Assembly: GCA_946807835.1 (NCBI GenBank) | Contig: OX327683.1 | Coordinates: 7,631,001-7,695,000, forward strand | Direction of reading: 5' to 3' | Length of the DNA stretch: 64,000 bases | DNA from: Ailanthus altissimus | Taxonomy: Eukaryota > Streptophyta > Magnoliopsida > Sapindales > Simaroubaceae | Part shown: piece after piece, positions 15,971-58,826 of the stretch | How positions within the stretch are numbered: position 1 is the first letter of the stretch | Layout of the letters: each line of letters starts with the position of its first letter | The notes under the pieces: generated by a model | The model's input: only the letters and a program-made list of their open reading frames with translations | Databases searched by the model: none | Told to the model about the DNA's origin: nothing | Made by a program: the position numbers and the translations under genes

Positions 15971-16035
15971 CTTTTGCCAGAATTACACTTATCCCTTGCC
16001 GGAGCCAAGCACCATTCAATCAGCAGGGTGAAGTC
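15971..16035 (-). other. GAMYB 5' UTR, exon segment next to the ATG
   Basis: The stretch before the ATG has an acceptor-like TTCAG at 16,036-16,040. The 5' UTR therefore probably continues across an intron. Confidence 0.6.
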
Positions 16036-25570: not shown

Positions 25571-26993
25571 TGGCACGTTCAAAATATAGGAGTTTATTCT
25601 CAAGTGCAGAAATATCGAAGTAATAAATAACCCGAGGAGAACGTGGTCGATCCACAGGGAAGTAGAATTAAGATTACAAACTATAAATACTTTAAAGACA
25701 ATTAATACAATATAAGATGTTTATAAATATTAATTCAATTAACCAATTCAAATAAAAATTAAGGTTAGGGGGATGCACTCTTAGCATAAGAAGTAAGAAT
25801 ATATTTAACTCTTTTTATAACTTAATTGGAATCTTCACACAAAGGAGGTTCCAACCGAAAAATATAACAATTAAAGTTCATTATCATTTATATATTAATT
25901 AGTATTTATTTCTTTCAATTATTATATACCAAATCTTATAAATGGGTTCGAGTATTTATATTGTCAATCTTTATATTTGTCTACCATAAATCAAGACTCC
26001 CACTTTATAAGAAAAGGTATATACGCCAAATCTTGTAAATGGTTTCAAGAATTTATTGTGCCAAGTATAAAGTTTGTCAATAATAAATCAAGATACACCA
26101 ATTAGAAGAAAGGGTATTAATATTATAAACAAAATAAATACATCATATATAATTTTTTATAACTTAAGAATAAAATATTAAATTCATAAATAAGAGTTAA
26201 GTATTACCTTGTCAAGAGTTTCACCCTTTCACCTTAGCATAAAGAAAATTACTTGGACATAATAAAACTAAAGAAAAAGAAAAGAAATGGAAGAAGAGAT
26301 AACATGACTTTATAATAGTAAACAAGAGAAATAATATTACAAAGAGATAATACAAAAGACAAGTATTTTGAACTAAAATCTAGCTCTCTAATTACATGTT
26401 TTAGGCATAAATATGTTACCTATTCATAGAAAAATATGAATAAATTGAGACAAATGAAGAGGGAACCATTTGGATGATAAAAGTTAGAATTATGGTAAAT
26501 AATTTACATTGATTATCATTAATGCACCCAGATGCTTATCCAATTTAGAATTGATGTGGTTCGAATTAGCTGTCACTCAAAACATCAAAGTTGTAGATAA
26601 GTCTCTTATCTTTCCAAATTGAATTGTCTCATACATATTAGATATGTATTTCTATATTTATAGGCCAAATACTGATGACTGTTCAGATTGGGCCTATATT
26701 ACAGATCAGTTTTGTTTTAAGCTATTTTTGCCTTCTAAACGCTCGAATTTCAAATGCCTTGTAAACTAAAATATGTTAGTCCATTGAATCAGCTCTTCAC
26801 AGAATCAAGAATCACTCCAATTTAATTCCTAGGTAGAAAGATATGCCCATTGTACCGTACCTACCACAAAATAGTTAAAAGCTAATTAAGTACAATATTG
26901 TAAACATACTTAGGTTAGGGGGGTTAAAAACACTAATAATACAAAACAATGATATAAAACCCTTATTAAATATGTAATTTCAAGTGTTCATCA
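25571..26993 (-). repeat. 3' LTR of the minus gypsy copy
   Basis: Read on the minus strand it starts TGATGAACACTTG and ends CGTGCCA. It matches 39,392-40,816 closely, including the words gatccacaggga and ccttattaaatat. Confidence 0.85.
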
Positions 26994-28357: not shown

Positions 28358-28997
28358 CTACAGACGAAGTGTCAAATCTATCTTGCGTTTCTTTTCACTG
28401 TCATCAGTATACCAATCTATCTGACTCATTGTTGGATTAAAAACTTGTAGTTCATCGAGTAATTAATCAACAGTTGAAGTAGAAATGAGGACCTGTCGTG
28501 CTGCAGATGAGACGAATTATTTTTTCATTGTATAGTCAAGAAAAGATAACAACCATTATGAAAACCAATAATTTTTAACAAACCAATGAGTTTTTTATGG
28601 ATTTGTAATTGTGCCCATGAGACAATTTGAAAAATTTCCTCCAATGTTCCGAAACCTCTAGGTAGAACTATGAAGACAAAAGCATTATGAAGCATAAAAG
28701 ACATTCGTTCATGCATTGATGATACCTGTAACTCATCCCCAATTATTTTTCCTACAATGTTTCTAACAGCTAGAGCTTTCGGTATGATACCCAAAACTCG
28801 ACTGCCTTTATTTTGTGCAGTGATTGCCACAAGTCCCATTAATCCAAGACTACCCCCCTATATACTAAATGAATATTTCACTTAGCTAACACCTTACAAA
28901 GGGTTTCTATTGCTTCTATAAACTCTTTAGTTTTTCCAGGGCTGAATCCACAAAAGACACAAAATTTTATGAATTTACGAGTTGATATTCCTTCCAT
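28358..28997 (-). pseudogene. LOG-like cytokinin-activating phosphoribohydrolase captured by the retrotransposon
   Basis: LOG enzymes release active cytokinin bases from riboside 5'-monophosphates in the cytosol. The 640 nt span a full LOG (about 213 residues): MEGISTRKF, CVFCGFSPGK, GGSLGLMGLV, RVLGIIPKALA, SSMHERM with the conserved Arg, LPRGFGTLEE with the conserved Glu, IVSWAQLQIH, then a C-terminal helix region ending at a stop at 28,358-28,360. The family motif PGGxGTxxE reads PRGFGTLEE. Two one-base losses (near 28,860 and 28,556) and three in-frame stops disable it. It is intronless, unlike typical plant LOG genes, which suggests capture of processed RNA. It lies between integrase and the 3' LTR, the site of env-like genes in Athila elements. 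The plus copy has the same gene in the same place. Confidence 0.9.
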
Positions 28998-29062: not shown

Positions 29063-29070
29063 TATTTATA
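29063..29070 (-). promoter_or_regulatory. TATA box upstream of the LOG-like gene (minus copy)
   Basis: TATAAATA lies about 66 bases before the LOG ATG, followed by a short A/C-rich leader. The plus copy conserves it at 48,912-48,919. It suggests that the captured gene has, or had, its own promoter inside the element. Confidence 0.5.
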
Positions 29071-29318: not shown

Positions 29319-29870
29319 CTATGGGTCGGGGATAGGCTTCTCATCCAATTTTCTTATAAATTGACAAATAGGGTCTTTTAAAGTCAGATTCTTGAGACTG
29401 CACCACTCATATTCTTTTAAGAATATGTCCCATAATTCATGAATTACAATATGCACATATTTACTAGGATGCGTCTCAAGAGTCGATAAGATATCATCTA
29501 AAGACTCCTTACTTAGGCCATCCTTAATGAACCTAATTTTATCTTCGCGATTTATAGACACTATTCCTAAAATGCGACAACGTGTGTTGCAAGTCATGCG
29601 TGCACACTTGTAACAAATGCTTAATCATTTTGCTTTTCATTTTTTGCAAAAGAGCTTTTACCTAAGTCAGGCATATAGAAAATTAATGAGTCTGAAGATT
29701 CACCTGTTAATCGAACTTTAGCTTCAATTAACCAACATAAGTCAACAGGTATATTCATAATCATTAATAACCTTAATCTTTCACATCTTACTTGGTAAAT
29801 TTTCTTTAAGGCATTTTGAGGCAATGAAGGAAAACGTTTTTTCAAATTCTTTAGAATGTCATCCAATTTT
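29319..29870 (-). pseudogene. Two unrecognised reading frames between integrase and LOG (minus copy)
   Basis: The first frame (29,621-29,866) begins MDDILKNLKKRFPSL and contains PVDLCWLIEAKVRL. The second (29,319-29,597) begins MTCNTRCRILGIVS and contains KESLDDILSTLETHP. They may be one frameshifted protein of about 180 residues. The plus copy keeps both, more damaged. I do not recognise a family. No signal peptide or clear transmembrane helix is visible, which argues against a typical env-like protein. The location suggests accessory or captured sequence. Confidence 0.5.
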
Positions 29871-30189: not shown

Positions 30190-32270
30190 TAGGATTTTCA
30201 ATGTCCATTGTTCCATAAGGGTACACATGTTTCACAATAAAAGATCCATTCTGTCTTTATCTTAATTTTTCAGGGAATATGTGAAGTCGAGAATTATAAA
30301 GCAAAATCTTATGACCAGTATCAAATATTTTTCTTTGAATTCTTTTATCGTGAAAAGCTTTTATATTAGCTTTATGAATTTTTGAATTCTCATATGCATA
30401 ATTTCTCAATTCTATAAGTTCATTTATTTGTAATTTACGTATCTGTCCAGCGGAATCAAGATTTGTATTGAAAGTTTTAATAGCCCAGTAAGCTTTATGC
30501 TCAAGTTCCATTGGTAAATGATAAGGTTTTTCATAAACTATCCTATAAGGAGACATACTCAATAAAGTTTTAAAAACAGTTCTATAAGCTCATGGTGCAT
30601 CATTAAGTCTTTTTTTTTAAGAAAGTAGTATCATATCATTGCATATTATTAGGACATTACAATAAAGATCTTTGATGCATACGATCAAAGGATTACAGGA
30701 TAAGCATAGAGTACATCTTAAGACCACCTGAATGCGAACTCTTCCTTAGAAAAGTATAAACTATACCTATACTGGTACGGGTAATCCAACAGAAATTACT
30801 GACCTTTTCGAAAAAATAGAGAAATAGATCTCATAAACAAAAATTACTGACATTTTCGAAGAAAGGAAAAAACAGATCTCACAAACGAGAGAAATATTGA
30901 TCCTTTAAAAAATGGAGAAATTATTAAACCGATTTGTTCTAAAAAACAACTAAACTCAACCACAAACACCCAATAAGATAAAGTCAGCAATGAAAACCAA
31001 GCAAATGGTATAACTTTTCGGTGGTACCACAGTGGGCAAATAGACGGCCGTCAGAGAAAGATCGAAAACACTGACCAGAATGGACCTAACTGGCCAAGAG
31101 GCCATAACATGTTGGCAGGGTTGAGGAAGACCTAGGAAGGTGTCTTTGCCGGTGGTGGGGGTTGAGAGTGCACAAGGGAAATAAAAGGGACAGCAACCGG
31201 AGGGTGTTCGGCAAACGTCTGGTGAAGTTGACCGAAAAATGGCCAAGGGAGCAAAGGCCGAAGGAGGCGCGGCTAGTGTCGATCGGGACCAGTGAGACGC
31301 GGTGAAGATCACCCGGGATGAAAGCTGCCAACGAGAATAGGTCGGCAGCTACTACTCTGCGGGAGACCCCATCAGAAGCGGAGAAAGCCGAAGAAGGAGG
31401 GGCAGCGCATGAAGTTTAGAATCGGCATAATCCGGTCAGAAACCAACCACCTGAGCACCATTCGAATGCCAGGAACGCCAGCAGAGGTACCTTGAAGATT
31501 GACAGTTCCATGACCCAACGAAGAAGACAGTGCATCATTAAGTCTTAAAGACCAATCTTTGCGATTTAGGTTTACAGTTTTTTCTAAAATTTGTTTTCTC
31601 TCCCTATTTGCTAATTCAACTTGTCCACTTGTCTGAGGATGATAAGGGGTGGCAACTTTATGAGTAATACCATATTTTTTCATTAATGTTTCAAATGGAC
31701 TATTACAAAAATGCTTACCCCCATCACTTATAATGGCTCGAGGTATTCCAAATCGACTTAAGATATTTTCTTTCAAAAATTTCATAACTATTTTATGGTC
31801 ATTATGTCGACATGGAATAGCCTCAATTTATTTTGAGACATAATATTCTGCAACTAAGATATCCATAAATCTAAATGATAACGAAAATGATCCCATGAAA
31901 TCTATCCCCCGACAATCAAATATTTAAATAGTAAGAATGTGGTTCAAAGGCATCATGTTTCGTTTTGAAATTGATCCCAACTTTTGACAATTTTCACACG
32001 TTATACAAAATGTATGTGTATCTTAAATAAAGTGAGCCAATAAAATCTACACTGTAAGACTTTTGTAGTTGTTTTCTTTGATGAGAAATATCCCTACATG
32101 CTTCAGAACAAAAAAATTCAATAACTTTACTTACCTCATTATCGGGTATGCATCTTTAAAATATTTTGTCACAATAATATTTGAAGAGATAAGGATCATC
32201 CCAATAAAACTTTTTTACCTCAGTTAAAAATTTCTTTTTGTCTTGAGCATTCCATTAAGGTGGCATTTCT
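30190..32270 (-). pseudogene. Integrase of the minus gypsy copy, interrupted
   Basis: The core catalytic region survives: GIDFMGSFSLS, IISDGGKHFCN with the second catalytic Asp, and TPYHPQTSGQVELANRE with the Glu region. The C-terminal part reads MSPYRIVYEKPYHLP. A 918-bp insertion (30,612-31,529) lies after LNDA. Upstream stops disrupt the zinc-binding domain. Confidence 0.85.
30612..31529 (-). mobile_element. 918-bp LINE-like insertion with 17-bp target-site duplication
   Basis: The word gtgcatcattaagtctt occurs at 30,595-30,611 and again at 31,530-31,546. The plus-strand left end is a T run, so on the minus strand the insert ends in poly(A). This fits a 5'-truncated non-LTR element. Base composition at 31,080-31,500 is much richer in GC than the host element. 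It has an open minus-strand frame (30,956-31,312) of low complexity, with no recognised domain. The plus gypsy copy is uninterrupted at this site. Confidence 0.85.
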
Positions 32271-32389
32271 CCTGTTACAAGAAAATTAACAATATTAGCA
32301 TACCAAGGCATTGTAACAGTAGAAAATAAAAATTCATCGGAAAAAGAATCATTAATAAGTGTTTTTTCTGTTGATGAATCTGATGCGAG

Positions 32390-32830
32390 TCTTGATAAGT
32401 GATCTGCAACAACATTCTCAGCTCCATTTTTATCCTCGATATTGATAATAAATTCTTAAAGCAATAGAATCCATCGAATCAGTCTTGGTTTTGCATCCTG
32501 TTTTGACATTAAGTACCTTACAACAGTATGGTCAGTAAACACAACAGTTGAAGAACCAATTAAGTAAGAACAAAATTTGTCTAATGTAAATATTACAACA
32601 AGTAGTTCTTTTTTAGTTGTTGTGTAATTCATTTGTACACTGTTTAAAGTTCAACTTGCGTAATAAATTACATATGATTTACCTTCATTTCTTTGTCTCA
32701 ATACAGCACCAACAACGTAGTTACTAGCATCACACATGAGCTCAAAAGGTAAAGACCGGTCAGGAGATTGTATGATAGGAGCTGATGTTAAGAGACCAAT
32801 TAATTTTTCAAACAAATTTTGACACTCTTG
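32390..32830 (-). pseudogene. RNase H of the minus gypsy copy
   Basis: Fragments in shifting frames correspond to the intact plus-copy stretch at 46,157-46,477 ([13 protein letters not shown]). Stops are frequent. Confidence 0.7.
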
Positions 32831-32833
32831 AGT

Positions 32834-33950
32834 TCACTCAAATGATATATCATTTGCTAAAAGGTTACAAAGAGGTTTAGATATAACACTAAATTTTTTG
32901 ATGAACCTCTTATAGAATCCAGCATGTCCTAAAAAGGATCGGACTTTTCTGACTGTTTTTTGTGGAAAAAAATGTGTAATGAGTTTGACTTTTGCCTTAT
33001 CCACTTCAATTCCTTTAAAAGACACTACATGTCCAAAAAAAATTTCAGAAGTAACCATGTAATGACATTTTTCTCAATTCAACACAAGACGCCTTTCTTG
33101 ACATCTTTTTAAGACATTTTCTAAGTTTTCAAGACAATTATCAAAAGAATTTCTAAACACAGTTAAATCATTCATGAAAACTTCTAAATAATGCTTAACC
33201 ATGTCACTAAAAATGCTTAACATACATCTCTGAAATGTTGTTAGGGCATTACAAAGTCTAAAGGGCATTCTTTTAAAAGTAAAGGTCCTAAAAAGACATG
33301 TGAATATAGTTTTTCTTGGTCGTCTAGTGCTATAGAAATTTGATAATAGCCAGATTAACTATCTAAAAAGCAATAGTAAAGATGTCTTGTTACTCTTTCT
33401 ACAATTTGATCAAGGAATGGTAAGGAAAATAATTTTTTCTAGTGGCTGAGTTCAACTTCCTATAATCTATGCACATACTCCAACTAGATGAGACTCGAGT
33501 TAGTATTAATTCACCTTTTTTTATTTTCAATAACTGTGATTCCATATTGTTTTTGTATTACTTGAGTAGGACTTACCCACTTACTATTTGAGATATGATA
33601 GATTATTCTTACTTCAAATAATTTGAGAACTTCAATTCTCACTACCTCTTTCATATGTGGATTTAATCTCCTTTGAGGTTGTTAGAAAGTTTTGGCATTA
33701 TCTTTTAGGTGTATTCTATATGTGTAAATCAAATGATCAATGCCGTTTATGTCTTTTAAAGTCCACCCAATTGCATTTTTATGCATTTTCAATAATTTAA
33801 TTAACTTACCTTCTTGTTTGCTTATGAGTGTAGAATAGATTACCACCGGGTAAGTTTGTTTTTCTCCAAGAAATGTATATTTCAGTCTTTCAGGTAGAGG
33901 TTTCAACTACAACTTTGAAATTTTATTCTGTTTATCCTCATTTTCTCATA
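32834..33950 (-). pseudogene. Reverse transcriptase of the minus gypsy copy
   Basis: The blocks MPFRLCNALTTFQRCM and VSFKGIEVDKAKVK and the connection segment RKVRSFLGHAGFYKRFIKK identify a Ty3/gypsy reverse transcriptase. The catalytic FMDD is FMND here (near 33,165), a G-to-A type change that removes the first Asp. The frame is broken into several pieces. Confidence 0.88.
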
Positions 33951-34038
33951 ATTCTTCAAACTTTAGTTTCCATTATTTATTTTCAATCACCTGTGCACAG
34001 TCAAGTAAATAGCACATGTCAGAGATTTCTGGATTTAA

Positions 34039-34707: not shown

Positions 34708-37700
34708 CTATTTAATAGCATCCAATAAAAAAATATTAACTTTTATCTGTTTGAAGATTTTAAAATTTTCAGGATTGTGATTTATCTTCTTAGTATTACG
34801 TAATGCATGAGAAAATGGAGGTGGAGGTAAGGGTTTACTGTTTTCTTCATTAGGTGTAGGTTCAACGTTTTCCTTACCCTTAAAGATTGATTCATCGTTC
34901 TCATAAAGTTCAGGAATGTCATTTTCAACTATTTTACCATTCCGAAGAATGATAATTGCTTCCTGAACTACATGCATTTGAGTTATGTTGTCTTTTGAGG
35001 TTTGGTTGTGGTTGAGAAGAAAATTTTCCTTTCTCATGAATGTTCAGTGCGGATGTAAATTTAGCAAGAATATATTTCAAATCAGCAAAGTTTTGAGCAT
35101 TTTGAGAATTAACAGACTCTTAGTTTTCAATGAATGCATGCAAAGTTTCTTCAAGATTTTTCCTATGAGGTAAGACATATGGTGCATAACCTTGGTGGTT
35201 TTGAAATTTTGGTGTGGTTGGAAAGGTGGTTGTGAAGCCTGTGCTTGAGTGCCATTCCTACAACTAAAATTTGGATGATTTTGCCATCCAGGATTATAGT
35301 TTTGTGAATATGGGTTATTGTTTGACCGCTTGAATGTGTTTAGAACATTGGCTTGTTGATAGAGACATTCCCTAAATGCAGGCAAAGTTGGGCAATCATT
35401 AGTAGAGTGATCGTGGGTTTCATAAATATAGCACACAATTTATTGAATAGATTTTATTTGACCACTCATTTTCATTTCTAAGGTTTTGACTTTTCTAGTT
35501 AGGGATGCTAATTTGGCTTGAAGGTCATGATCTTCCCTAAGATGATAAAAACCCCCACTAGATGTAGTGGTTTGAGTTTTGCTAGATGCCTAACAGATAC
35601 CAGCAGTGTCCCAAATTTTGAGTATTTTCTACTAGTAAGTCTAAATAGTTTATTGCCTCTTCTGGGTCTTTGTCCTCAAATGTTCTATTACACATCATTT
35701 CTACCATTTGCTTACTTGAGGTGTTAAGCCCTCATAGAAATTTGAGACTATTCTTCGTGTTTCAAAGCCATGATGGGGACAGGTTGTAGTAACCACTTAT
35801 CCACAATCGAAAATAATAAATATTTATATATATGTATAATATTCATATTTTATTTATATGTGGATGATACGTAATTTTTGTATTGTTATTAGTATTGTTT
35901 GTATAGATTAAGGACATACTATTAGTATTGGGTTTATTTGCAAGACTTTAAATTTATTTTAGGGACCACATTATAATACTTTAAAAGTTTTGGGGGTTAC
36001 TTTGTAAATATTAAAAATTAGCCTCTTAGTATAAAAATACACATTTTAAATCATAATTTACTCATTTTTGGGTTAAGCCACCCCTTTAGAGAGAGAAAAG
36101 AGAGAAATAGAGGGGAGAGAAAGAGAAGAAGAAGAAGAAAAAGGAGAAGAAATTGGAATTTTGAGTTTTAAGAGGTATATCATAACTATTTCTCAATTTA
36201 TTGGTGTTAATTAAGTTAATTCATTTAAGTTTTAATTTCTAGAAATATAAAAAATTAGGGATTTGATGTGGATTATGTAAGATATATTAAGAATTGATGA
36301 TGATTATGTAGATAACTTGATAAATCATGATGAATTGCAGAATTTTTACTTGATAGTCTCTTGATCTGAGAATTTTATAAATTGTTGTACTTCGATTTTG
36401 GTTTTTTTCTTTGAAAATATAAAACTAGACATGTCTAGAATCGTTTGAGACTTTGAATCGATTGAAAATTCCAGATATTGAATTTGTAGTGAATTTACCA
36501 AAATGACCCTGAAATTCTAGAAATTTTGTGTTAACAGTATGATACAGTGACAAATAATTTTTAATCTGCTGAATGATCTTCACAAATTACAAATTTATGG
36601 AATATGATAAGTTTATATGTCTAATATGATATACTCATAATTGAGAATTTAGATAAATGTGGTTAAATTGTTATGATTTTCTAAAGTGTATCAGCTCATT
36701 GCAGTATTTGATTAACAGATTTTTAAAGCTATAGAATAAAATAGTTTTAAAATACTTTTGGTAGTGATTTTGAAGTAAAATATTTATCATGGATTGAGAT
36801 ATATGTCAAGAGTAATTCTGTTATATTTTTATAATTTTTGACTTAGTATATGATTTTATAAAATTAGAAGATTGAATACTATTCAATAAATATCTTGATC
36901 CTGTCAAGATAATAGTTTGGATTTGATGGTGTTTATGAAATGGATTGTGTAAGAATTATGATATAATATTCATATATAAGAAGGATATATGAGTCAAGAA
37001 TGATATATTCTAATTTTGGAGTAATTGGACATCATTTGATGTATAAGATAATTTTGTTAAATGTAAATGGTCAGAATGACAGGTTCAGAGAAACTAAGTA
37101 ATTAGACCAATTCGATGTGATAAGTGCAATATGTGTAATTTTGTAAGCTATTTAAAGTATTTTGTATGAATGTTGAGGCTTATAAAAGCATTAATCTCTA
37201 TTGATAGGTTAAAGAGAATTAAGTATCGTACCCGAAAATGTTAAGAGGTAAGTATACTAGACTTTTACTGAAATCACAATAAACATAGTAATTGTTTATG
37301 TATGATTTTGTAAATGTTCTTAGAAATATGTTTATGTTATACTAAAGTATATTTAACATAAAATGTGAAAGACATATGTTTATGAATGTGAGCATGGACA
37401 TACATGTGTTTATGAAAGTGAGCTTTCAAAATGAAATGTGTTTAACAAAGAAAGCTTTTGAAGTGAAAAATGTCCATGAGATACGTTTTGTGTTTTAAGA
37501 ATGTTTGAACTCACTATTTATTTAGTAGGCACCTTATGTGATTTATGGAGCCTTTATGTGTGATCTTTCCTTCGGGATTGGTATATGTTATATGTTCTGT
37601 ATGTAGGGAGGATCCTATTGGTACCTAAAGGAAGAGTGAGACATCACATTCGTGTGGTGGTGTATTGGTGTATGTGAGAAGACTCACCGATGATCAGGGT

Positions 37701-39040
37701 GAGGGTTTGGCTTTTACGTTCAGGCATGATCATTATATATGTGTAATTTAAACCTCAATTGTGTTATTCCTCTCATATGGTATATCACCTACGAGTGACA
37801 TTTGGCTCATTATGTGATATGTGATATAAAAGTCCTACTAAGTAGTAGTTGAGTAATGATATTCTTATTATATGTTTTGAAAGAATGTGTAAGCGCTTAC
37901 TTGACATATGATTTGATAAGATTATGATTTTAATTTATCATGGCATATGCATTATGTATATATGCATTGTGTATATATGTACATATGCATTGTGTACATA
38001 TATGTATTTCTATTTTGATATATGAAAAACTAGTATGCTTATTGAGTTTTATACTCATTATAATTTATGGTGATTTCAGGTAAATAAGGCACATGTGTGC
38101 TTAGTTGATTTGGCAAGGCTTCTGCTGTCCTTTGGGTTTCCTAAGTTGCTAGGTTGCTAAGTGTTTCATTTGTGGACACATAGTTTAAGATATTTGATTT
38201 GTCCCTATTGAATAAATGCTCATGTGTTAATTTATTAGGTGTGGTTGTATTTGGTTTATGTTTAACCAAGTATAGTTATGGATTGATTTTGCATTAAACT
38301 TACTAGCAACTTGATAAGGATTCCTATGTTGAATTCAAGTTTGAAATTTTATGCAATATTAATTATGAGTGTACATTATTGAATGAGTGTAAGTTATGTC
38401 ATGTTTGAGATCTTTTGGGTCTAGGGCGTGACACAGGTATTAAATAATTCTTTATACCTTTTCCAACATTGGTAAAGGGTCTCTCCTAATTTTTAGGCAA
38501 ATGTGGTAATTTGTCTTTTAAAAGAATTTGTCATATGGGAAGGAAATATATTTTTTAGGAATTGTTGTTGCATCTCATTCCATAAAGAAATAAATTCTAG
38601 CCTAAGGTTTTGTAGTCATGTTTTAGCTTTATCTTTTAAAGAAAAAGGAAAAAGCTTAAGTCGAATTGTGTTCATGCTACAATTTTGGTCATTATACGTG
38701 TTACACACTTCTTCAAATTCTCTTAGATGCAGATAAGGGTTATCTGCATCTAAGCCATGAAAAGTGGGTAAAAGTTAGATAATGCTTGACTTAAAATTAA
38801 AATGTGGTGCTTCTAGAGAAAAAAATTAAGCAAGATGGTGCACCGGTTCGTGTAGGGTTCATGTAATCTTTAAGTATCCTAGGTCAGTTATAGTCATTAT
38901 GTTGGGACTGATTGTCCACTAGGTCTATGAGTCCCTCAATTTAATTTTCGCTCATGGTGTTAATTGGTGAAAAATTAGAAGATGAAAGAGAATCTAGTGA
39001 ATTATCAAAGGAAGTTTCGAAATTACCTTTCACCAAACGA
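34708..39040 (-). pseudogene. gag of the minus gypsy copy, split by a solo LTR
   Basis: The capsid-like part lies at 38,434-39,040 and continues at 35,440-35,784. The nucleocapsid part near 35,395-35,436 reads CYIYETHDHSTNDC, a CCHC knuckle with its second Cys changed to Tyr. A linker (34,708-35,037) leads to protease. The solo LTR at 35,785-38,433 interrupts the frame. Confidence 0.8.
35785..38433 (+). mobile_element. 2,649-bp solo LTR with CAGGT target-site duplication
   Basis: It starts TGTAGTAACC and ends GGGCGTGACA, and is flanked by CAGGT at 35,780-35,784 and 38,434-38,438. A plus-strand TATAAAAA (36,030-36,037) followed by a GA-rich leader gives plus orientation. The terminal words resemble Ty3/gypsy chromovirus LTRs (inference). 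AT-rich short repeats of tgtatatatgcatt occur at 37,945-38,010. No coding sequence was found. Confidence 0.88.
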
Positions 39041-39367: not shown

Positions 39368-39385
39368 TCCTCGACAACGGCGCCA
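39368..39385 (-). other. tRNA-Asp primer-binding site (minus copy)
   Basis: TGGCGCCGTTGTCGAGGA closely matches the complement of the 3' end of plant tRNA-Asp (TGGCGCCGTTGCCGGGGA). It lies about 6 bases after the LTR. Confidence 0.85.
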
Positions 39386-39391
39386 AAAACT

Positions 39392-40816
39392 TGACACATT
39401 TAGAATATAAGAGTTTATTCCTAAGTGTAAGATTGTCGAAGTAATAAATAACCCAGTAAGAACGTGGTCGATCCACAGGAAAATAGAATTAAGATTACAA
39501 ATTATAAATACTTTAAAGACAATTAATGCAGTATAAGATGTTTATAAATATTAATTTAATTAACCAATTCAAATAAAAACTAAGGTTAGGGGGATCCACT
39601 CTTGGCATAAGAAGTAAGAATATATTTAACTCTTTTTATAACTCAAGTGGAATCCTCACACAAAGGAGGTTCCAATTGAAAAATATAACAATTAAAGTTC
39701 ATCATCATTTATATATTAATTAGTATTTATTTATTTAATTATTTTACACCAAATCTTATAAATGAGTTCAAGTATTTATTATGCCAATCTTTATATTTGT
39801 TTACAATAAATCAAGACTCTTATTTTACAAGAAATGGTATATACGTCAAATCTTGTAAATGGTTTCAAGAATTTATTGTGCGAAGTATAAAGTTTGTCAA
39901 TAATAAATCAAGATACACCATTTAGAAGAAAGGGTATTAATATTATAAACAAAATAAATACATTATATATAAATTTTCATAACTTAAGAATAAAACATTA
40001 AATTCATGAATAAGAGTTAAGTATTACCTTATCAAGAGTTTCACCCTTTCACTTTAGCATAAAGAAAATTACTTAGACATAATAAAACTAAAGAAAAAGA
40101 AAAGAAATGGAAGAAGAGATAACATGACTTTACAATAGTAAACAAGAGAAATAATATTACAAAGAGATAATACAAAAGACAAGTATTTTGAACAAAAATC
40201 TAACTCTCTAATTACATGTTTAGGTATAACATGCTACCTATTTATAAAAAAATATGGATATATCGAGACAAATGAAGAGGGAACCATTTGGATGATAAAA
40301 GTTAAGAATGGTGGCAAATAATTTACATTGATTATCATTAATGTACCCAGATGCTTATCCAATTTGGAATTGATGTGGTTCGAATTAGCTATCATTCAAA
40401 ACATAAAAATTGTAGATAAGTCTCTTATCCTTCCAAATTGAGTTGTCTCATACATATTAGATATGTATTTATATATTTATGGGTCAAATACTGATAACTG
40501 TTTGGATTGGGTCTATATTGCAGATCAGTTCTGTTTTAAGCTATTTTCATCTTCTAAACACTCGAATTTCAAATGTCTTGTAAACAACACTACACTAGTC
40601 CATTGAGTTAGATCTTTACAGGATCAAGAATCACTCCAATTGAATTACTAGGTAGAAAGTTATACCCATTTTACGTACCTACCACAAAATAGTTAAAAGT
40701 GAATTAGGTACAATATTGTAAACATACTTAGGTTAGGGGGGTTAAAGACACTAGTAATATAAAACAATGATATAAAACCCTTATTAAATATTTAATTTCA
40801 TAAGTGTTTTATATCA
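39392..40816 (-). repeat. 5' LTR of the minus gypsy copy
   Basis: It ends (minus strand) in AAATGTGTCA next to the primer site. Its outer end is near 40,816, where the minus strand reads TGATATAAAACACTTATG. It overlaps the start of the plus copy's LTR at the head-to-head junction. Confidence 0.8.
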
Positions 40817-42177
40817 TTTTTTTGTATTACTAGTGTCTTTAACTCTCCCTAAATTAAGTATGTGTACAATATTGTACCTAGTTAGCTTTTAACTGTTTCG
40901 TAGTAGGTACGGTAAAATGAGCATAACTTTCTACCTAGGAATTCAATTGGAGTGATTCTTGATCTTGTGAAGAGTTGAATCAATAGGATAATATATTGTA
41001 TTTTATAAAGTATTTGAAATTCGAGCGATTAGAAGGTAAAAATGGCTTAAAATAGAACTGATTTGCAAAACAGACCCAATCCGTACAGTCATTAGTATTT
41101 GGCCCATAAATATACAAATACGTATCTAATACGTATGAGACAACTCAATTTGGAAAGATAAGAGACTTATCTACAACTTTATGCTTTGAGTGGAAGCTAA
41201 TTAGGATTAAATGATAGCAAATTAGTTGCCTCCCTTATTGACTTTTATCATTCAAGTGATTACTCCTCATTTGTCTTATATTATCCATGTTTTTTTTATA
41301 AATAAGTGGCCTTTTCTATAAATAGGTATCATATTTATGCCTAAAACATATAATTAGAGAGCTAAATTTTAGTATAAAATACTTGTCTTTGCATTATCTC
41401 TTTGTAGTAGTATTTCTTTCATTTATTATTTTAAAATTCATGTTATCTTTTCTTCCATATCTTTCCTTTAAGTTTATTATGTCCAAATAATTTTTATTTT
41501 TTAAGGTGAAAGGGTGAAACTCTTGATAAGGTAATGAGATATACTTCAACTCTTATTCTAGAATTTAATGTTCCATTCTTAAGATAAGCAAATTTATATA
41601 TTATGTATTTATGTTATTTTGAAATATTAATACCCTTTATTGTAAAGTGGTGTATCTTGATTTATTATAGACAATCTTTGTACTTGGCACAATGAATTCT
41701 TGAAACTATTTATAATATTTGGCGTAGATACTCTTTCTTATAAAGTGAGAGTCATGATTTATTGTAGAAAAATATAAAGATTGACATAATTAATACATGA
41801 ACCCATTTATAAGATTTTGTGTATAATAGTTAAAAGAAATAAATATAAGTTAATATATAAATGATGATGAACCTTAATTGTTATATATTTTGATTAAAAC
41901 CCCCTTTGTGTGAGGATTCCAACTTAGTTATTAAGAGAGTTGAATTTATTCTTATTTCATATGCCAAGAGTGGATCCCCCTAACCTTAGCATTCATTTTA
42001 ATTGGTTATTTAAATTATTATTTACAAACGTCTTATATTGTTTTATTTGTCTTTAGAGTATTTATAGTTTATAATTTTAATTTTACTTCCCTGTGGATCG
42101 ACCTCGTTCTCACTGGGTTATTTATTACTTTGACAATCCTACATTTTGGAATAAACTCCTATATTATAGATGTGTCA
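40804..42177 (+). repeat. 5' LTR of the plus gypsy copy, 5'-truncated
   Basis: It matches 60,413-61,826 from about the 35th base onward and ends GATGTGTCA before the primer site. The missing start coincides with the junction to the inverted minus copy. Confidence 0.8.
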
Positions 42178-42183
42178 AATTTT

Positions 42184-42202
42184 TGGCGCCGTTGCTGAGG
42201 AA
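42184..42202 (+). other. tRNA-Asp primer-binding site (plus copy)
   Basis: TGGCGCCGTTGCTGAGGAA fits the complement of the tRNA-Asp 3' end with few mismatches. Confidence 0.85.
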
Positions 42203-48122: not shown

Positions 48123-48665
48123 AATGGATGATATTCTAATGAATTTGAAAAAATAATTTTCTCATTTCCTCAAAATGTCTTAAAGAAAATTTACCAAGTA
48201 AAATGTGAAATATTAAGGTTATTAATGATTATGAATATACCTGCTGATGTATATTGGTTAATTGAAATCAATGTTCGATTAGCAGGCCAGTTTTTAAGCT
48301 CATTAAATTTTTACATGCCTAACTTATGTAAAAGCTTTTTTTTTTAAAAAAGCGAAGGGCAAAAATATTAAGTGTTTATTATAAGTGTGCATGCATGACT
48401 TGTAACACACATTGTCGCTATTTAGAAATGGCGTTTGTAAATCGCAAAGATAAAATTAGGTTCATTAAGGATGACCTGAGTAAAAAGTCTTTAGATGATA
48501 TCTTATCGACTATTGAGATGCATCTTAGTGGATATGTGAATATTGTAATTCGTAAATTATGGGATATATTCCTAAAGGAACATAAGTGGTACAGTCTCGA
48601 GAATTTGACTTTAAAAGGCCCTATTTGCTAATTTATAAGAAATTTAGATAGGAAGCCTATCCTCG
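48123..48665 (+). pseudogene. Two unrecognised reading frames between integrase and LOG (plus copy)
   Basis: Homologous to 29,319-29,870. It starts MDDILMNLKK and is soon shifted. The second frame (48,395-48,631) begins MTCNTHCRYLEMAFV and contains SLDDILSTIEMH. Conservation in both copies shows that it belongs to the family. Confidence 0.5.
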
Positions 48666-48911: not shown

Positions 48912-48919
48912 TATAAATA
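48912..48919 (+). promoter_or_regulatory. TATA box upstream of the LOG-like gene (plus copy)
   Basis: TATAAATA lies 65 bases before the LOG ATG at 48,984, matching the minus copy's arrangement. Confidence 0.5.
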
Positions 48920-48983: not shown

Positions 48984-48995
48984 AATGGAGGAAAC
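48984..48995 (+). pseudogene. First four codons of the plus-copy LOG-like gene
   Basis: ATGGAGGAAAC (M-E-E-T) is cut by the copia element. The reading frame resumes at 58,191 as TSTRKF after the GAAAC duplication, matching EGISTRKF of the minus copy. Confidence 0.85.
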
Positions 48996-51065
48996 TATTA
49001 ACGTACTTTAGGGTATATGCATGTGATTGTGTACATGTTGAAAAAACTAAATACATGTATCATATACATGATTTACAGCATAATTAAATATATATTCAAT
49101 ATATACATATGTAATTTGAATCATTAACAGCTTAGGATTACAGAAACTTACATTTGAATAACTTTGGTGAAGATTTAAAATTTTTGGATAGTTGCAAGCT
49201 CTAAACCTTGAGCTCACTTTGAAGTGAATTCTTGTACAATAATAGTTAACAACAATTTGGTGGGATTATGAATCTAGAATGGCAACTACCAACTATTTCC
49301 AATAACAAGTTTTTATTTCTTGAAAGAAAGATGAGATGAATTATTTTTATTTTTCTCTTGTTCTTCTCATAACCGTTTGTTAAAAGAATATAGCTATAAG
49401 AAAACAAAAAACTCTCCCTTTATCTCTTTTCTTTCTCAACCATAGGTCTCATACACCCCATCAATCAATTAAACACTTTAATTTTTAGGTTTTGTCTAAA
49501 AATAATATTTAATGTAAGTGCTCCACCAAAATATCATTAAATGGCCTACTATAAAAACAAGTTTTGGTGGCCATTATTGATCAAAATAATGCACCATTAT
49601 TTCATGAATGGTGCTCCGTTAAATTAGGTATGTTTTTCACTGAATGGTGAAAACATAGCATGGCCTTTTTCATTAGATATGTCTCATATTAATAAATTAT
49701 TTATTTGTCAAATAAATAATAAAATAATAAATAGGTGATATTATGCTACTTCTCGCTATATCATTGGTCCATAACATTTGTTAATTAATTGATATACTGA
49801 ACTTTTTAAGACTGAACTGTTCACTCTAAAATGCTACCCCAGTGCACAACGAATACACTTCATATTGCGAGACTCTCTAAGTCCACATCGGCTTTTCAAT
49901 GGAACTCCTCAATAGGTTTATGAATGATGCCCCCTCCCCACACATTACGGATATTACAAAGCAACGAGTTAAACCATATAAGTTGAGATTATAATATATC
50001 CGTATAATCTCTCTATCATCTATATCCAAGTATAACAGAGATATAGATCAATGCCATCAAATCTCCATATGCTTAACTGTAAACTTATCTCCAAATTTTT
50101 ATTTCAATAAATAATATATGCAAACACTTTTGCGATAAATAATATCGCAAAAGTGTTTGCAGATATTATTTATCCCTATGGTAAAACTCTTTTCCCAAGT
50201 ATTATTGCTTATGGCCATAAGACTTTCTGAAACACAATCTTAGAGCATCATGATATATTACTCACAAAAATGAGCTGATGGATCTCATATCTATGCATAT
50301 CGAACTCCATGAGCATCAAACCATACCTAGCGATACCCAGTGGTCAGATTATGAAAGGTTTCTGACATGTGTGGAACCAAAGTATGGTGGATCACTCACA
50401 AGCTTACTGTGGCGCTCAAGTTAAAGGATCATGAATACTACTTAACTCCAAAGAGCCTCCACTGACGGCTTTATGAGATATCTATTAGAGGTTTTCGTGA
50501 GTCTGTTCAGTACCCAATCCTTATTAAATACATGTATCTCTATACGAGCTTTTACTAAACCCATAGTCTGTTAAGACTAACCATTTGGACCATCCATATA
50601 TAGATATACACTGATCTATATATATTTAATAAGGTATTTACTGACAGATCCGCATCAACGAAGATAGATCAGGAATATAGTATTTGAGAACATATATGTA
50701 TAATGATATTTCCTAGCAACATTTGCAACAATCTGAAATTATGTCATTACTAATATATTCTCAAGTCTTTGTCTAATTTCAGACAAGGCTCTAACTCCTA
50801 AGATTTCGCTAACTCTTATAACCTGCTAACTCTTATCAGTGCTAACTTTTAGTATTTATAACTCTCAGTGTTGTTAATTTTTAGCACTGATCTAAAATTT
50901 TAATAGATCAAATATAAACTCTTTTAAATCATACAATATTTAAAATGCTATAAGCATCTTACCAAATATAAAATATAATTAGCGATTTCATGAAATAATA
51001 ATAGTATAAATATGAAATAAATATTCATACATAAAAGGGATGACACGTAAGCACAAATCTCAACA
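48996..51065 (-). repeat. 3' LTR of the copia element
   Basis: 2,070 bp. The plus-strand left end is TATTAACG where the partner has TGTTAATG, a G-to-A change of the terminal dinucleotide. It contains an 18-bp perfect hairpin absent from the partner. Confidence 0.85.
50106..50172. repeat. Perfect hairpin in the left copia LTR
   Basis: GCAAACACTTTTGCGATA (50,120-50,137) is followed after 5 bases by its exact reverse complement (50,143-50,160). Imperfect pairing continues outward for about 12 bases. The other LTR (57,285-57,325) has only one arm. Confidence 0.85.
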
Positions 51066-51069
51066 ACTC

Positions 51070-51660
51070 TTACTTGCTTTAGTGCCATTCACGATGGTAT
51101 CTAAGGCCTATTGACTCTACATTTCTTTCAAATTTTTTGGAGTTAAGGCTTTAGTAAGTGGGTCTGCTATATTATTCATGGAGTCTACTCTACAAACTAT
51201 TACATCTCCTCTAACCAAGATTTCTATAATAATATGGTATTTGCTTTTCACATGGTTAGACTTTTTGTATGCTATTGGCTCTCTAGCTTGTGCAATGGCT
51301 CCATTGTTGTCACAAAATATGGTATAGGATCCATTGAACTTAAAACTATTCCAAGTTCAGCGATAAATTTGCATATCCATACTACTTCTTTTGTTGTTTC
51401 TGAGGCTACAATATATTTTGCCTATATTGGGAATTAGCTGTAGAAGACTATTTGTTGCCTTTTCAACTTACTGCAGCATCGTTGAGAATGAATATATACC
51501 CAAATGTAGACTTTCTATCATTTAGATCAGACTGAAAATCTAAATCTGTGTATCCTCTTACTTGTAAGTCACTTTCTCCATATATAAAAAATTTGTCCTT
51601 ATTACCCTTAATATATTTAAGAACATGTTTCACAGCTATCTAATGACCTTTACCTGGATC
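51070..51660 (-). pseudogene. RNase H of the copia element
   Basis: This stretch lies between the reverse transcriptase and the 3' LTR in the expected position. It has only short frame pieces and many stops. Confidence 0.55.
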
Positions 51661-51663
51661 AGA

Positions 51664-52770
51664 CTAATACCGACTTATAACACTTACGACCATACTAATG
51701 TCAGGTCTCATACATATCATGGCATATATCAAGCTTCGTACAACTAATATATATAGTATGTTAAACATTCTAACTTTTTTATCTTCACTCCGAGGACACA
51801 TTTTCCTCAAAAGATAAATGTCATATCTAAACGATATGTTAACTATCTTACAATTATTAAAATTGTACTTTTTCAAGACATTATCTATGTACAATAATTG
51901 AGAGAGTCCTATAAGCCTTATAACTTTATCTATATAAAGCTTTATACCCAGTATATAGGACACCTTTCCTAAATCCTTCATGGAGAAATTCTTACTAAAG
52001 TAGCTTTTGACTGACTATAACATACTAATATCATTTCTGATAATAAGTATGTCATCAACATAAAGAACCAAGAAGATTACTATGGTCTTACTACTCTTTT
52101 CATACACACATGATTCTTCTTCGTTCTTGATGAAACTAAATCCTCTGATTACCTTATCAAAACGAAGATTCCAATTTCTGAAAGCTTACTTAAGTCTATA
52201 AATTGACTTCTTCAGTTTTCATACTAGACCAGAAGTTTGGTTGGATGTAAAACCTTCAGGTTGTTCCATATAGATCTCTTCTTTAAGATATCCAATTAAG
52301 AACGTTATTTTTACATCCATTAGCTGACTTTTATAATCATAATATGTAGCAATTGCCAATAAAAATTGAATTGACTTAAGCATAACTACTAGCAAGAAGG
52401 TTTCCTCATAATTGACCCATATCACTGAGTATAACATTTCGCCACCAGACGGGCTTTAAAAGTCTTTACTTTTGCATTGGGCCCATGCTTTCGCTTGTAA
52501 ATCTATTTATAATCGATAGGAACAATTCCCTTAGGAAGCTTAATTAAGTCCTAGACTTGATTTTGATGCATTGAGTCAATTTTAGATTTTATGACTTCTT
52601 GCCATTTACCCGAATCGATGTCCAACATTATTTCTCTATAAGTTAAAAGATCATTTTTGTTAACCAAGAAAACACCAAGAGCACTTTTAAGTATTGAACC
52701 ATACCTCTTGGGTGGCTTTGATATCTTTTTCAATCTACGTGGAGGGTGTGTCAAAGGTATTTTGTTCAAT
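51664..52770 (-). pseudogene. Reverse transcriptase of the copia element
   Basis: Pieces in order are a segment ending DSGKWQEVIKSKIDSM (52,551-52,769), DVKITFLIGYLKEEIYMEQPEGF (52,219-52,437; conserved Asp near its start), the intact catalytic LYVDDILII near 52,030-52,060, then MKDLGKVSYILGIKL and MICMRPDISMVVSVISRY (51,664-51,981). These are diagnostic copia motifs. Confidence 0.88.
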
Positions 52771-52934
52771 TAAGCCTGAGGTTTCATCGTTAGTTCATTT
52801 ATATTCTAATTGAGTTCATCTAATTCAATATTTCTACAATCTCCACGATTAATGAGAAAATATTTCTTTAGAAATGTGGCATGTTGAGTAACAAACATAT
52901 TTTGTTCCTCAGGATCATAGAACTGGGTACCCCA

Positions 52935-53760
52935 TTAAATTCTTAGGATATTCAATGAACCAAAACTTGTACCCTTTAGGTGCAAGTTTATCCTGTTCGT
53001 AACTTTTATGTAAGTAGGATTGCCCCAAATATTAATATATTTAAGACTCAATTTTATTTCATTCCATATCTCATAAGATGTAGAAGAAATAGCTTTCGAT
53101 GAAACTTTATTCAACATACGAGCAGTAGTTTCTAAAGTATAACCTCATAGATATTCAAGAAGATCGGTGAAGCTAATCATTGAACAGACCATATCTAATA
53201 AAGTTTGATTCCTCCTCTCCGAAACACCATTGTATTGTGGAGTGCCTAGAGGACTATATTGAGCGATAATCCTATTCTCCTTTAAATAATCCAAAAATTC
53301 ACTACTTATATATTCACTGCCTCGATCTGATCAAAGGCATTTAATATACTTTCTGGTTTGTGTCTCTACTTCAAGTCGAAACTCTTTGAACTTTTCAAAA
53401 GTTTCTGACTTGTGTTTCATAAAAAACACGTATCCAAATTATAATAGATCATCGATAAATACAACGAAGTATCAACACCTACCATTATAGTGTGATTCAT
53501 TCGACCACATATATCACTATGTATAGGTTTTAATAAATCATTGGCGCGGTGTCCAACACCAGTGAATAGAGCTTTGGTCATTTTTTCTTAAATACAAGAT
53601 TCACAAACTGGATAAGGTTCTATGGTCAAATCAGGTATTTGACCATCCTTAACCAAACAAGATAAGCATCTCACACTTATATAACCTAATCTTATATGTC
53701 ACAATTTGGTCTCATTTAAAATTCTTGAGCTTTTTCTAGTATTTACTTGTATATTCATGA
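52935..53760 (-). pseudogene. Integrase of the copia element
   Basis: A GAG-pre-integrase stretch (HIRLGYISVRCLSCLVKDG, near 53,640-53,705), a zinc-binding remnant and core pieces such as KPIHSDICGRM precede SSKAISSTSYEIW at 52,935-53,117. Stops are frequent. Confidence 0.75.
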
Positions 53761-53989
53761 CATTTCCTATTGTATCCAACATATAATAGCCAGTAATCAA
53801 CTGACATTCAACTAATAAAATATTATCCAAATCATACAAATATAAGAAACGGTTCCGAACATACATATGATATCCCTCATTGTCCAATATAGGAATAGAG
53901 ATAATTTGTCAGATAATGTTTGGCACATAATAACAATTTTTCAATACTATAATTTTATTACAAGGAAGAAGTAAATCAAAACGTCCAAT

Positions 53990-55000
53990 AGCCTGACCTA
54001 CAGGAAATCATCATTCCTAACATGAACATGTACTTCTCTAAGCTGTAATAGTCTAACTTCTTTCAGATCCTACAATACATTGAAGATATGCGAAGGATAA
54101 TCAGTATCTAATACCCAGCTAGTACTAATATAAAATGCTAACGAAATGTCAATGATAAGTAAGTGCATACCTGATGGGGTATTCTTAATAATGGTAAGGT
54201 ATTTTGAGCAATTACACTTCCAATACCTATCCTTGTTGCAATGGAAACATTTTTCTTTTACTTTGTTCTTATATTGGTGCTGAGACGTGTTGCTTTTGAG
54301 GACCTATCTTCTTGTTCTTCCCTTTGAACTTCTTAGAAGTCTTCGGGGTAGAAAATGAAGCACTATGAACAAAGAGAGCCATACCCCATTTGTTCATGTC
54401 TCATTGAGCTATTTTTAGCATGTTATGCAGATCAGAATAAGTAATGGCCAATGATTGCATGGTGAAGTTTATGATGAGTTATGCAAATGACTCTAGAAGT
54501 GATTGGAGAATCAAATTATTCCCCAATGTATTGCTTAGTGAGATATACATAGTTTCTAGCCTCTCAATATGAGATATAATCTTAAGGACATTGGGACTCA
54601 CTGAATTGCCTTCGAGTAGTCTAGTTTAAAAGAGAGATTTGGTAACCTTATATACTTTAACTTGAGGCCAGTCACTAAATAACTCTTTCAGGTGGAGCAT
54701 TATACTCCCAGTATTGTCCATGTGGGCATACTCCATTTGAAGCTCCGTAGACATTGAGTTGAGGATGTACGATTTGACTTTCAAATTGTCATCCAACCAA
54801 TTTCGATATGTCTCATTTTCTTTTAGAGAAGCATCATCAGAAATAGCTCAAAGCAGACGCTGATCAATTACATACCCAACTTCTCAGAATTGATAACTAT
54901 TCTAAGATTCATAAGCCAATCAGCATAATTTTCTGCAGCTTTGAGTTGGTGCGCATCAAGAATACGAACTAGTGGGTTGCTTGAAAGCCATTTGATCTTC
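53990..55000 (-). pseudogene. gag and protease of the copia element
   Basis: gag begins near 55,000 (MAFKQPTS) and continues with AISDDASLKENETYRNW. The zinc knuckle near 54,225-54,260 reads CFHCNKDRYWKCNC, with its His replaced. The protease active site reads VLDTDYPSH (near 54,105), where DTG would be expected. Confidence 0.75.
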
Positions 55001-55800
55001 ACAAGACAAAAAAAAAGATGTTAGCAAAACATTTTAGATCATGGGTATAATTGTCATACATTTTTTAATCTCTCAAATGAAAAAATGATAGTTTTAATTT
55101 TTTACTATACAGTGAGAAGTGGACTCTATTGATATTTTACTCTAGCCTCACACTGTATCAATATTAACTTTTGTAAACCCAAAAGGTAGACAACTCTTGT
55201 TAATTGCATCTCATGCAGCTCTTACCACTGATCCTAAATACACCTTATCCGCACACTGTAACAATATTGGATAAGTGTATTCCATATTAACTTATCAATC
55301 ATCAAATATATGTTACCAGTATTACCTTCACGCTGTAGCAATATTAGATAATACGTTCGCATATATTTGCCTCATCTCATGTTTAACTGGCATAGCCCTA
55401 ATTAGGAAAGACCAGAGTGAACCGTTTAATACCGTATTAACAAGACGGATCATTGTATAATATTATTCAATTTGATTAAGATAAATATTTTTATTAATAA
55501 TTTTCAATAAATTTTAATATTTAATAATGATCTGATTTATAATCAGAATGTTTGTTTATACAAGCACAACTAGCCCCTACCAACAGGGCTCCTATTGTAA
55601 TTAATAGTATAAACAAATGTTTACAATATATAATACAATAATATAACAAGTATAATTGTATTAAATGAACCTTACATGCAAAAATTTTAAATTAGAGTGT
55701 TTTATTTAGAATGATCAACATTAAAAGTTTAACGTTACATCATTATACTATATAATACTCCGAAAAACAAATTTACTCTTTTTTTTGTCTTCAACCTAAA

Positions 55801-56003
55801 GCGCCCCAGTGTTCTGACTTACAAATACCTCGGTGTTCAATACTTGAACACCACAGCATTCTACCATTTGAACACCCTTGTGTTAAGCACTTTAACGCCC
55901 CAACGTTCTCATAATGAACGCCCTAGTGTTCAATGATGAACACCGCATCATTCATGTTAACACATGAATGCCCCACTGTTTGGTTTATAGAGCCGCTGCG
56001 TTC
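55801..56003. repeat. Degenerate minisatellite, about 23-bp unit, in the copia leader
   Basis: About nine imperfect units follow the pattern AACGCCCCAGTGTTC plus 6-9 variable bases. They lie between the primer site and gag. Confidence 0.7.
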
Positions 56004-56119
56004 TTTTGACAAAAACTATTTTTCTATACTTTAAACACTTCAAAAAGTAAATTTTACTATTTTCAAACATTCTAAATACTTTATATAACACTCTAACAAC
56101 TCAAAAACACAATAAACAT

Positions 56120-56131
56120 GCTCTGATACCA
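56120..56131 (-). other. Initiator tRNA-Met primer-binding site of the copia element
   Basis: The minus strand reads TGGTATCAGAGC two bases after the LTR end, an exact match to the usual copia primer site. Confidence 0.9.
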
Positions 56132-56133
56132 CT

Positions 56134-58185: not shown

Positions 58186-58826
58186 GAAACATCAACTCGT
58201 AAATTCACAAAAATTTATGTCTTTTGTTTATCTAGCCTTGGGAAAACTGAAGAGTTTGTAGAAGCAACAGAAACCCTTGGTAAGGTGTTAGCTGAGCAAT
58301 TTAGTATATAAGAAATGTAGTTTTGGATTAATAGGGCGTGTGTCAACAGTTGCACAAAATAAAGATAGTCAAGTTTTTGGTATCATACCGAAAGCTCTAG
58401 CTGTTAGAAATATTGTAGGAAACGTAATTGAGGATGAGTTGGAAGTATCGTCAATGCATGAGTGAATGTTTCTTATGCTTTGGAATGCTGATGCCTTCAT
58501 AGCTCTACCTAGATGTTACAAAACTTTAGAGAAAAATTTTCAAATTGTCTCATGGCCATAATTGCAAATCCACCAAAAATCCATTAGTTTGTTAAATGTT
58601 GATGGTTTTTATAATAAGTTGTTATCTTCTCTTGACTATGCGGTAAAAAAATAGTTCATCTCATCTATAGTATGATAGATCCTTATTTCTATTTTAACTG
58701 TTGATTAATTACTTGATGAATTATAAGCTTTTATACCTCTATTTGATCTAATAATGCATCAAATAGATTGGTATACTGATCACAGTGAAAAAAAAATGCA
58801 AGAAAGATTTAACTTTTCATCTGCAG
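58186..58826 (+). pseudogene. LOG-like gene of the plus gypsy copy, main part
   Basis: Continues from codons at 48,984-48,995. Recognisable blocks are VFCLSSLGKTEEF, VFGIIPKALAVRNIVG and SSMHE, followed by a stop where the minus copy has the conserved Arg. Then come LPRCYKTLEKNFQIVSW, where the PGGxGTxxE motif is destroyed, and LLNVDGFYNKLLSSLDYAV. Stops follow at the same positions as in the minus copy after VKK and after TVD. The final stop codon of the minus copy is CAG here, and the last codons run into a 232-bp tandem duplication. It is non-functional. Confidence 0.85.

Follow-up and report, generated by a model that had tools for sequence, protein, structure and literature searches.

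A YgdH domain, which is found in the LOG (LONELY GUY) family, has been reported in the Gypsy consensus sequences of two Citrus species, C. sinensis and C. clementina, and, with a filter switched off, in Gypsy elements of Populus trichocarpa as well; Steinbauerova et al. 2011 is cited there as an earlier report in line with this result (PMC9289625). In the passages of that paper on the Citrus and Populus elements, the account is one of domain presence, with no promoter, second element, selection, pocket or neighbouring open reading frame (ORF). Orchid Gypsy elements with an AlkB-type (N6-methyladenosine demethylase) domain provide a further parallel, an enzyme gene likewise fixed as an extra ORF, though the enzyme and the plant group are different (PMC9289625). 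Here we analyze a window of 64,000 nucleotides from Ailanthus altissimus (contig OX327683.1, positions 7,631,001 to 7,695,000), in which two copies of a Ty3/gypsy retrotransposon carry a LOG gene. The likeness to the Citrus and Populus elements lies in the LOG-family domain inside a long terminal repeat (LTR) element. A first-pass annotation of the window, made from the sequence alone, knew of no described case of such a gene; on this point it was mistaken, as LOG domains in Gypsy elements are already in print. What is new is the changed pocket and the cassette itself, which seems to have its own promoter, to be common to two elements and to be under selection. Among the literature matches listed, supplements lying outside them, no published description was found of a promoter, a second carrier, a pocket change or selection for an element LOG, nor of a neighbouring ORF that matches Pfam Viral_NABP. 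The gene described below probably belongs to the element, has a promoter of its own, is under selection and has an altered specificity; manipulation of host hormones by it is unproven.

LOG as a resident of a Ty3/gypsy family

The window contains two old Ty3/gypsy copies arranged head to head, copy A on the minus strand and copy B on the plus strand. Their parts are as follows (window coordinates; residue numbers are those of Corynebacterium LOG, see below).

25571..26993, minus: 3' LTR of copy A; identity to the 5' LTR of this copy is 91% (Kimura two-parameter distance, K2P, 0.092)
28358..28997, minus: LOG of copy A, decayed (three in-frame stops and two shifts of frame; PGG reads PRG, and Met and Gln stand for Lys100 and Glu125)
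29063..29070, minus: TATA box (TATAAATA) of copy A LOG, 73 nt before the ATG
29319..29869, minus: ORF2 remnants of copy A in two pieces; intact relatives match Pfam Viral_NABP
31529..34000, minus: pol of copy A in fragments (reverse transcriptase (RT), RNase H, integrase)
35785..38433: 2649-bp solo LTR of a second LOG-carrying family, in the copy A gag region (target-site duplication, TSD, CAGGT)
about 39372-39385: primer binding site of copy A, just below the 5' LTR
39392..40794, minus: 5' LTR of copy A, cut short where it meets B in a palindromic junction
40795..42177, plus: 5' LTR of copy B, start truncated
about 42184-42195: primer binding site of copy B
48132..48631, plus: ORF2 remnants of copy B
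48912..48919, plus: TATA box (TATAAATA) of copy B LOG, 73 nt before the ATG
48985..48995, plus: first bases of copy B LOG (ATG at 48985; TSD GAAAC at 48991-48995)
58186..58820, plus: remainder of copy B LOG, decayed, ending at about 58820
60413..61826, plus: 3' LTR of copy B

The LOG homologue that had been claimed at 28358..28997 was confirmed, on the minus strand, with integrase on one side and the 3' LTR on the other. Its 110-residue open core (28528-28857) matches Pfam PF03641 (E 3.6e-22) and finds the structures of Arabidopsis LOG8 and LOG3 at about 1e-27; LOG structures ranked first in the structure comparisons, for which reason we rejected membership of another Rossmann-fold family. The claim of a full-length gene in two copies held for the presence of both copies and failed for their integrity. 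Both are decayed pseudogenes, copy B being split by a Copia insertion at codon 4, and copy A can be read at full length only by skipping three stops and changing frame twice. PRGFGTLEE in copy A is what decay has left of the PGGxGTxxE motif, which neither window copy retains intact. Stops at codons 161 and 179 occur in both. We considered an ancestral premature stop common to A and B and rejected it: codon 161 is CAA in 49 and TAA in 18 of 67 copies read elsewhere in the genome, and recurrent C-to-T change or subfamily sharing explains the pattern equally well. Between A and B, LOG has diverged (K2P 0.205) like the other parts compared (0.17-0.21), and its dN/dS (ratio of replacement to silent substitution rates) of 0.89 over 99 codons is that expected of decay after insertion. 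In a self-comparison of the window, the outer flanks of the two copies had no match reaching 150 nt. Divergence like that of the rest, together with the lack of such a match, argues against segmental duplication of a unique gene.

The first-pass annotation had proposed searching the genome for further, and intact, element-borne copies. In 939 Mb on 37 contigs, the LOG core query gave at least 150 matches (the best 150 of 4771 candidates), all with E<=5.2e-46. Besides the copy in the window itself, these comprise 149 with 78-82% identity, spread over many contigs. Sixty-seven copies of this first type, a non-random set picked from the scored matches, were read. The intronless frame of 217 codons is intact in 27 of them, interrupted only by the codon-161 stop in nine, and otherwise damaged in 31. 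The order integrase, ORF2 region, LOG, 3' LTR was found in 20/20 mapped loci of about 5 kb (L017-L036, taken by rank from the best matches). One of these, L018, has an additional LOG fragment between integrase and 3' LTR, and a shorter locus, L003, is rearranged below LOG. The same primer site, TGGCGCCGTTG, occurs in A, B and one young copy; it is putatively of the tRNA-Asp type. The predicted family, with a putative tRNA-Asp-type primer site and LOG after integrase and before the 3' LTR, is thus present at many loci.

Four copies were fetched with 20 kb of sequence. Both LTRs were seen in three, whereas the fourth had no 5' LTR within the stretch. The three have LTRs of the TG..CA type, 5-bp TSDs (ATGAG, CACTA and GTAAG) and LTR K2P distances of 0.0056, 0.0042 and 0.0141. 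Distances of 0.004-0.014 imply that the LOG-carrying family has moved recently. Pfam matches to gag, protease, RT-RNase H and then integrase follow in that order in L009/L010. Athila elements differ from Tat elements in lacking an extra RNase H of archaeal type (PMC6317226), and a Pfam search of the pol pieces revealed no RNase H beyond the first. By gene order, Pfam content and LTR ends, the carrier family appears Athila-like.

These data bear on the notion that we are looking at ordinary multi-copy host LOG genes lying beside retrotransposons, or at segmental duplication of one gene. Some plant annotations do call the relatives LOGL10. Nevertheless, LOG lies between integrase and 3' LTR wherever this was mapped, TSDs and LTR pairs surround three copies, the frame is intronless and found on many contigs, and A and B share no long flanking match. 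We give this explanation hardly any credence. Neither of the two outcomes that the first-pass annotation had named as adverse, LOG in just two copies with a shared unique flank or homology to a different Rossmann-fold family, was seen.

Between integrase and LOG lies ORF2, a frame of 182 codons (L010:2271-2816). It scores 31.7 bits against Pfam Viral_NABP (PF05515), above the gathering cut-off of 23 (first row), and the family was matched at E<=0.01 by 11 of 15 ORF2 rows, four of the 15 being window fragments. The match to carlavirus Carla_C4 (PF01623) was below cut-off, and the fold model (predicted local distance difference test, pLDDT, 42) was unusable. ORF2 thus resembles the viral nucleic acid-binding proteins (PF05515, PF01623 of carlaviruses) in passing the PF05515 cut-off; it differs in that the match is a weak, domain-level one and that ORF2 belongs to a retrotransposon. 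A nucleic acid-binding role of ORF2 would be putative.

A candidate promoter and a second carrier

TATAAATA lies 68-73 nt 5' of the LOG ATG in 30/30 copies: 27/27 of the first type, 2/2 in the window and one of the second type described below. Its background rate is about 0.27 per kb on both strands, as judged from six sampled 10-kb stretches. Between the two element types, the interval from TATA to ATG is 80% identical over 71 nt; the 200 nt upstream of the TATA box are 52% identical, the best of 20 shuffles giving 51%. Downstream, both types have AATAAA 3' of the LOG stop, at +97 and +49. Since similarity starts at the TATA box and AATAAA is found in both types, the common unit looks like a complete gene, and the upstream TATA region looks like a candidate promoter of LOG's own.

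The second LOG type came to light with another query, P0018. Among the best 150 of its 6146 candidates, 98 are of this type, judging by the part of the query covered. Five copies were fetched and read, but the surroundings of just a single tandem unit (L082, period 6449). No pol shared with the first element was detectable in L082, the LOG unit alone being common to both. L082 includes the stretch that recurs in copy A as the 2649-bp solo LTR (35785-38433, TSD CAGGT). Near that LTR, a primer-like site, TGGTATCAGAGC, lies on the strand opposite to LOG, so LOG seems to be antisense in the second carrier, which is apparently a non-autonomous element. Among the matches listed, seven pairs of second-type copies are 6.4-6.7 kb apart on the same strand, the L082 pair being the one read, as if these elements stood in tandem with common LTRs. 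In L082 (3814-4383 and 4014-5234), an open frame of 407 codons has no counterpart in Pfam, and a short stretch may represent an RNase H tail. A search of viral contigs returned no relative of the LOG alignment, of ORF2 or of the 407-residue ORF.

Pocket, selection and function of the element LOG

The element proteins match PF03641, and seven of eight pass the TIGR00730 cut-off, the window fragment falling short of it. The fold model of one relative, P0001 (pLDDT 82), superimposes on Arabidopsis LOG3 with a template modelling (TM) score of 0.96 (target-normalized) and a root-mean-square deviation of 1.0. The fold, the PGGxGTxxE motif and the catalytic Arg and Glu are common to the element LOG and to Arabidopsis LOG3 (At2g37210, 2A33) and LOG8 (At5g11950, 1YDH). 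In contrast, these two host proteins keep the Lys and Glu of the pocket, whereas most of the element clade has lost both. The published account of Corynebacterium LOG (CgLOG) places Met96, Lys100 and Glu121 in the adenine site, proposes Arg99 and Glu122 as the catalytic pair, and proposes a prenyl site made of Met96, His97, Lys100, Glu125 and Trp129 (PMC4979012).

We counted these residues in 197 relatives, having set aside from 206 proteins a Thalictrum LOG of host type and eight that look bacterial. Eleven retain Lys100 as well as Glu125, and 184 have other residues at both positions; the remaining two have a replacement for Lys100 and a gap at Glu125, so that Lys100 is lost in 186/197. None of the 197 keeps one of the pair with the other replaced. 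Among the 154 relatives of at least 185 residues, 11 keep the pair and 143 have replaced it. Met, Leu or Ile (once Thr) stand for Lys100, mostly Gln or His for Glu125. The catalytic residues fare differently: Arg99 is present in 176/197, Glu122 in 187/197, and PGGxGTxxE together with Arg99 in 136/197. As to the 67 first-type host copies, PGGxGTxxE is intact in 53, and positions 100 and 125 read Ile/Gln in 64 and Met/Gln in three; the Lys100-Glu125 pair of a cytokinin LOG is found in none.

We built a tree of 49 rows that represent the set at about 82% identity, leaving out five double-LOG models and proteins shorter than 185 residues. The element-type rows group in a single clade (97/93) covering several plant orders, and within it the rows without Lys100 form another (99/99). 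The early branches keep Lys100, and P0040, P0291 and P0018 keep Glu125 too. This topology fits a single pocket change that may have followed capture. The five double-LOG gene models, all of Xanthoceras, are among the 11 relatives with both residues. In two Xanthoceras gene models with Lys100, P0002 and P0239, one stretch resembles the linker that the window elements have between gag and protease (54-71% identity, E 3e-10 to 6e-9); the Lys100-keeping form thus appears to sit in related elements too.

Could the element LOG still be a true cytokinin-activating enzyme that raises active cytokinin in host cells? The idea of a hormone-activating enzyme, put forward in the first-pass annotation, draws support from the retained fold and the mostly kept catalytic pair, from Arabidopsis LOG3 and LOG8 being closest by both sequence and fold, and from the early-branching P0040, P0291 and P0018 with their Lys100 and Glu125. 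NCBIfam NF058542, the equivalog model for cytokinin LOGs, does not tell element proteins from the Arabidopsis ones. The eight element-type proteins miss its cut-off of 300 bits (element scores 110-133), and so do Arabidopsis LOG3 (133.6), LOG8 (116.6) and the Thalictrum LOG, for which reason we dropped this miss as evidence against cytokinin activity. What renders the idea doubtful is that Lys100, of the adenine and proposed prenyl sites, and Glu125, of the proposed prenyl site, have gone together in 184/197 relatives. Replacement of the AMP-binding residues of CgLOG by Ala, Ser19 excepted, is reported to have nearly abolished activity (PMC4979012). We regard cytokinin activation as rather unlikely. 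With the base/prenyl pocket changed, the substrate would most likely be something other than the cytokinin precursor.

Selection on the gene is apparent between the element types. The dN/dS ratio, computed from stop-free copies only, is 0.30-0.37 in 10/10 pairs (two by five copies), and bootstrapping of one pair gave 0.21-0.49. This result, the conserved TATA box, and the persistence of one clade over several plant orders with its catalytic motif mostly kept speak against a functionless passenger copied along by the element. That alternative would account for the 40/67 copies in which the frame is not intact, for the lack of a sign of selection among young-family variants and for the near-neutral decay of the window copies; still, we consider it improbable.

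Several observations weigh against a selected gene captured once. The codon-161 stop is common to 18/67 copies of the young family. Among the 67, missense and silent variants number 12:6 when shared and 106:35 when single (p 0.41); the ratio not being significantly lower among shared variants, selection is undetectable within the family. A young copy compared with the LOG of B gives a dN/dS of 0.90, and with that of A 2.33 (5 silent and 39 replacement changes), few silent changes being at odds with the divergence of about 14% in flanking non-coding parts; a mosaic origin of A, or chance, is possible. Elsewhere in the element, young copy and A give 0.34 for gag-pro, 0.34 for ORF2, and 0.51 and 0.70 for pol parts; young copy and B give 0.44 for gag-pro, 0.31 for RT, 0.57 for another pol part and 0.76 for ORF2. 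Moreover, the tree contains only three host-type plant LOGs, which leaves a single capture unproven, and most of the foreign relatives in the set of 197 are assigned to elements by the tree and not by their DNA context.

On balance we favor, with some reserve, a LOG gene resident in the Ty3/gypsy, Athila-like family, with its own transcription unit, an altered pocket and a benefit to the element. An intronless plant LOG would have been captured by this family and carried as an apparently complete unit of TATA box, short leader, 217-codon frame and AATAAA, transcribed from the internal promoter and not from the LTR alone. The protein retains the fold, the nucleotide-binding motif and the Arg/Glu catalytic pair of LOG. 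Its base/prenyl pocket is altered, and the nucleotide that it cleaves or binds would most likely differ from the cytokinin precursor, to the advantage of the element. Selection would have kept the gene across the divergence of the two element types, and the same unit is present in a second LTR element. It is tempting to go further and envision a mobile, self-promoted cassette moving between unrelated elements, its cytokinin pocket swapped for another nucleotide substrate, that is under selection and works with the virus-like ORF2 for the element, for instance by acting on signalling or defence nucleotides of the cells in which it moves. This extended version we offer only tentatively, as a possibility short of an expectation.

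Surroundings in the window and implications

The remaining features of the window are these.

12385-15982, minus: host GAMYB/MYB33-like transcription factor gene
48996..58185, minus: Copia element nested in copy B LOG (LTRs at about 48996-51066 and 56134-58185; 5-bp TSD GAAAC)

The GAMYB-like frame (12990-14054) is 79% identical to proteins of Pistacia and Acer, its best named matches; both belong to Sapindales, as does Citrus, which makes a host of this order probable. A minus-strand reading at 1937-2302 looks like a putative pectinesterase exon. The window elements are decayed or truncated at their outer ends, and a palindromic junction at 40794/40795 joins the two truncated 5' LTRs. A and B may represent a compound insertion, AATAG being present in both outer flanks; against this, the A side has 7 extra bases and the LTR-LTR distances differ (0.092 in A, 0.155 in B). 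In the integrase region of copy A, an insert at about 30612-31528, which ends in poly-A and has a target duplication of 16 bp, is likely a 5'-truncated long interspersed nuclear element or other retroposed sequence. Just below copy B LOG, 58803-59269 is an exact tandem duplication of period 232, either a recent event or an assembly artefact.

Few enzyme genes are known to have become fixed in plant retrotransposons, and what the element gains from them is seldom clear. The present genome combines many copies with two element types, a candidate promoter and a change of pocket from which a specific enzyme behaviour can be predicted. Some of the plant gene models annotated as LOG or LOGL10 may belong to transposons, and studies of cytokinin could be misled by them.
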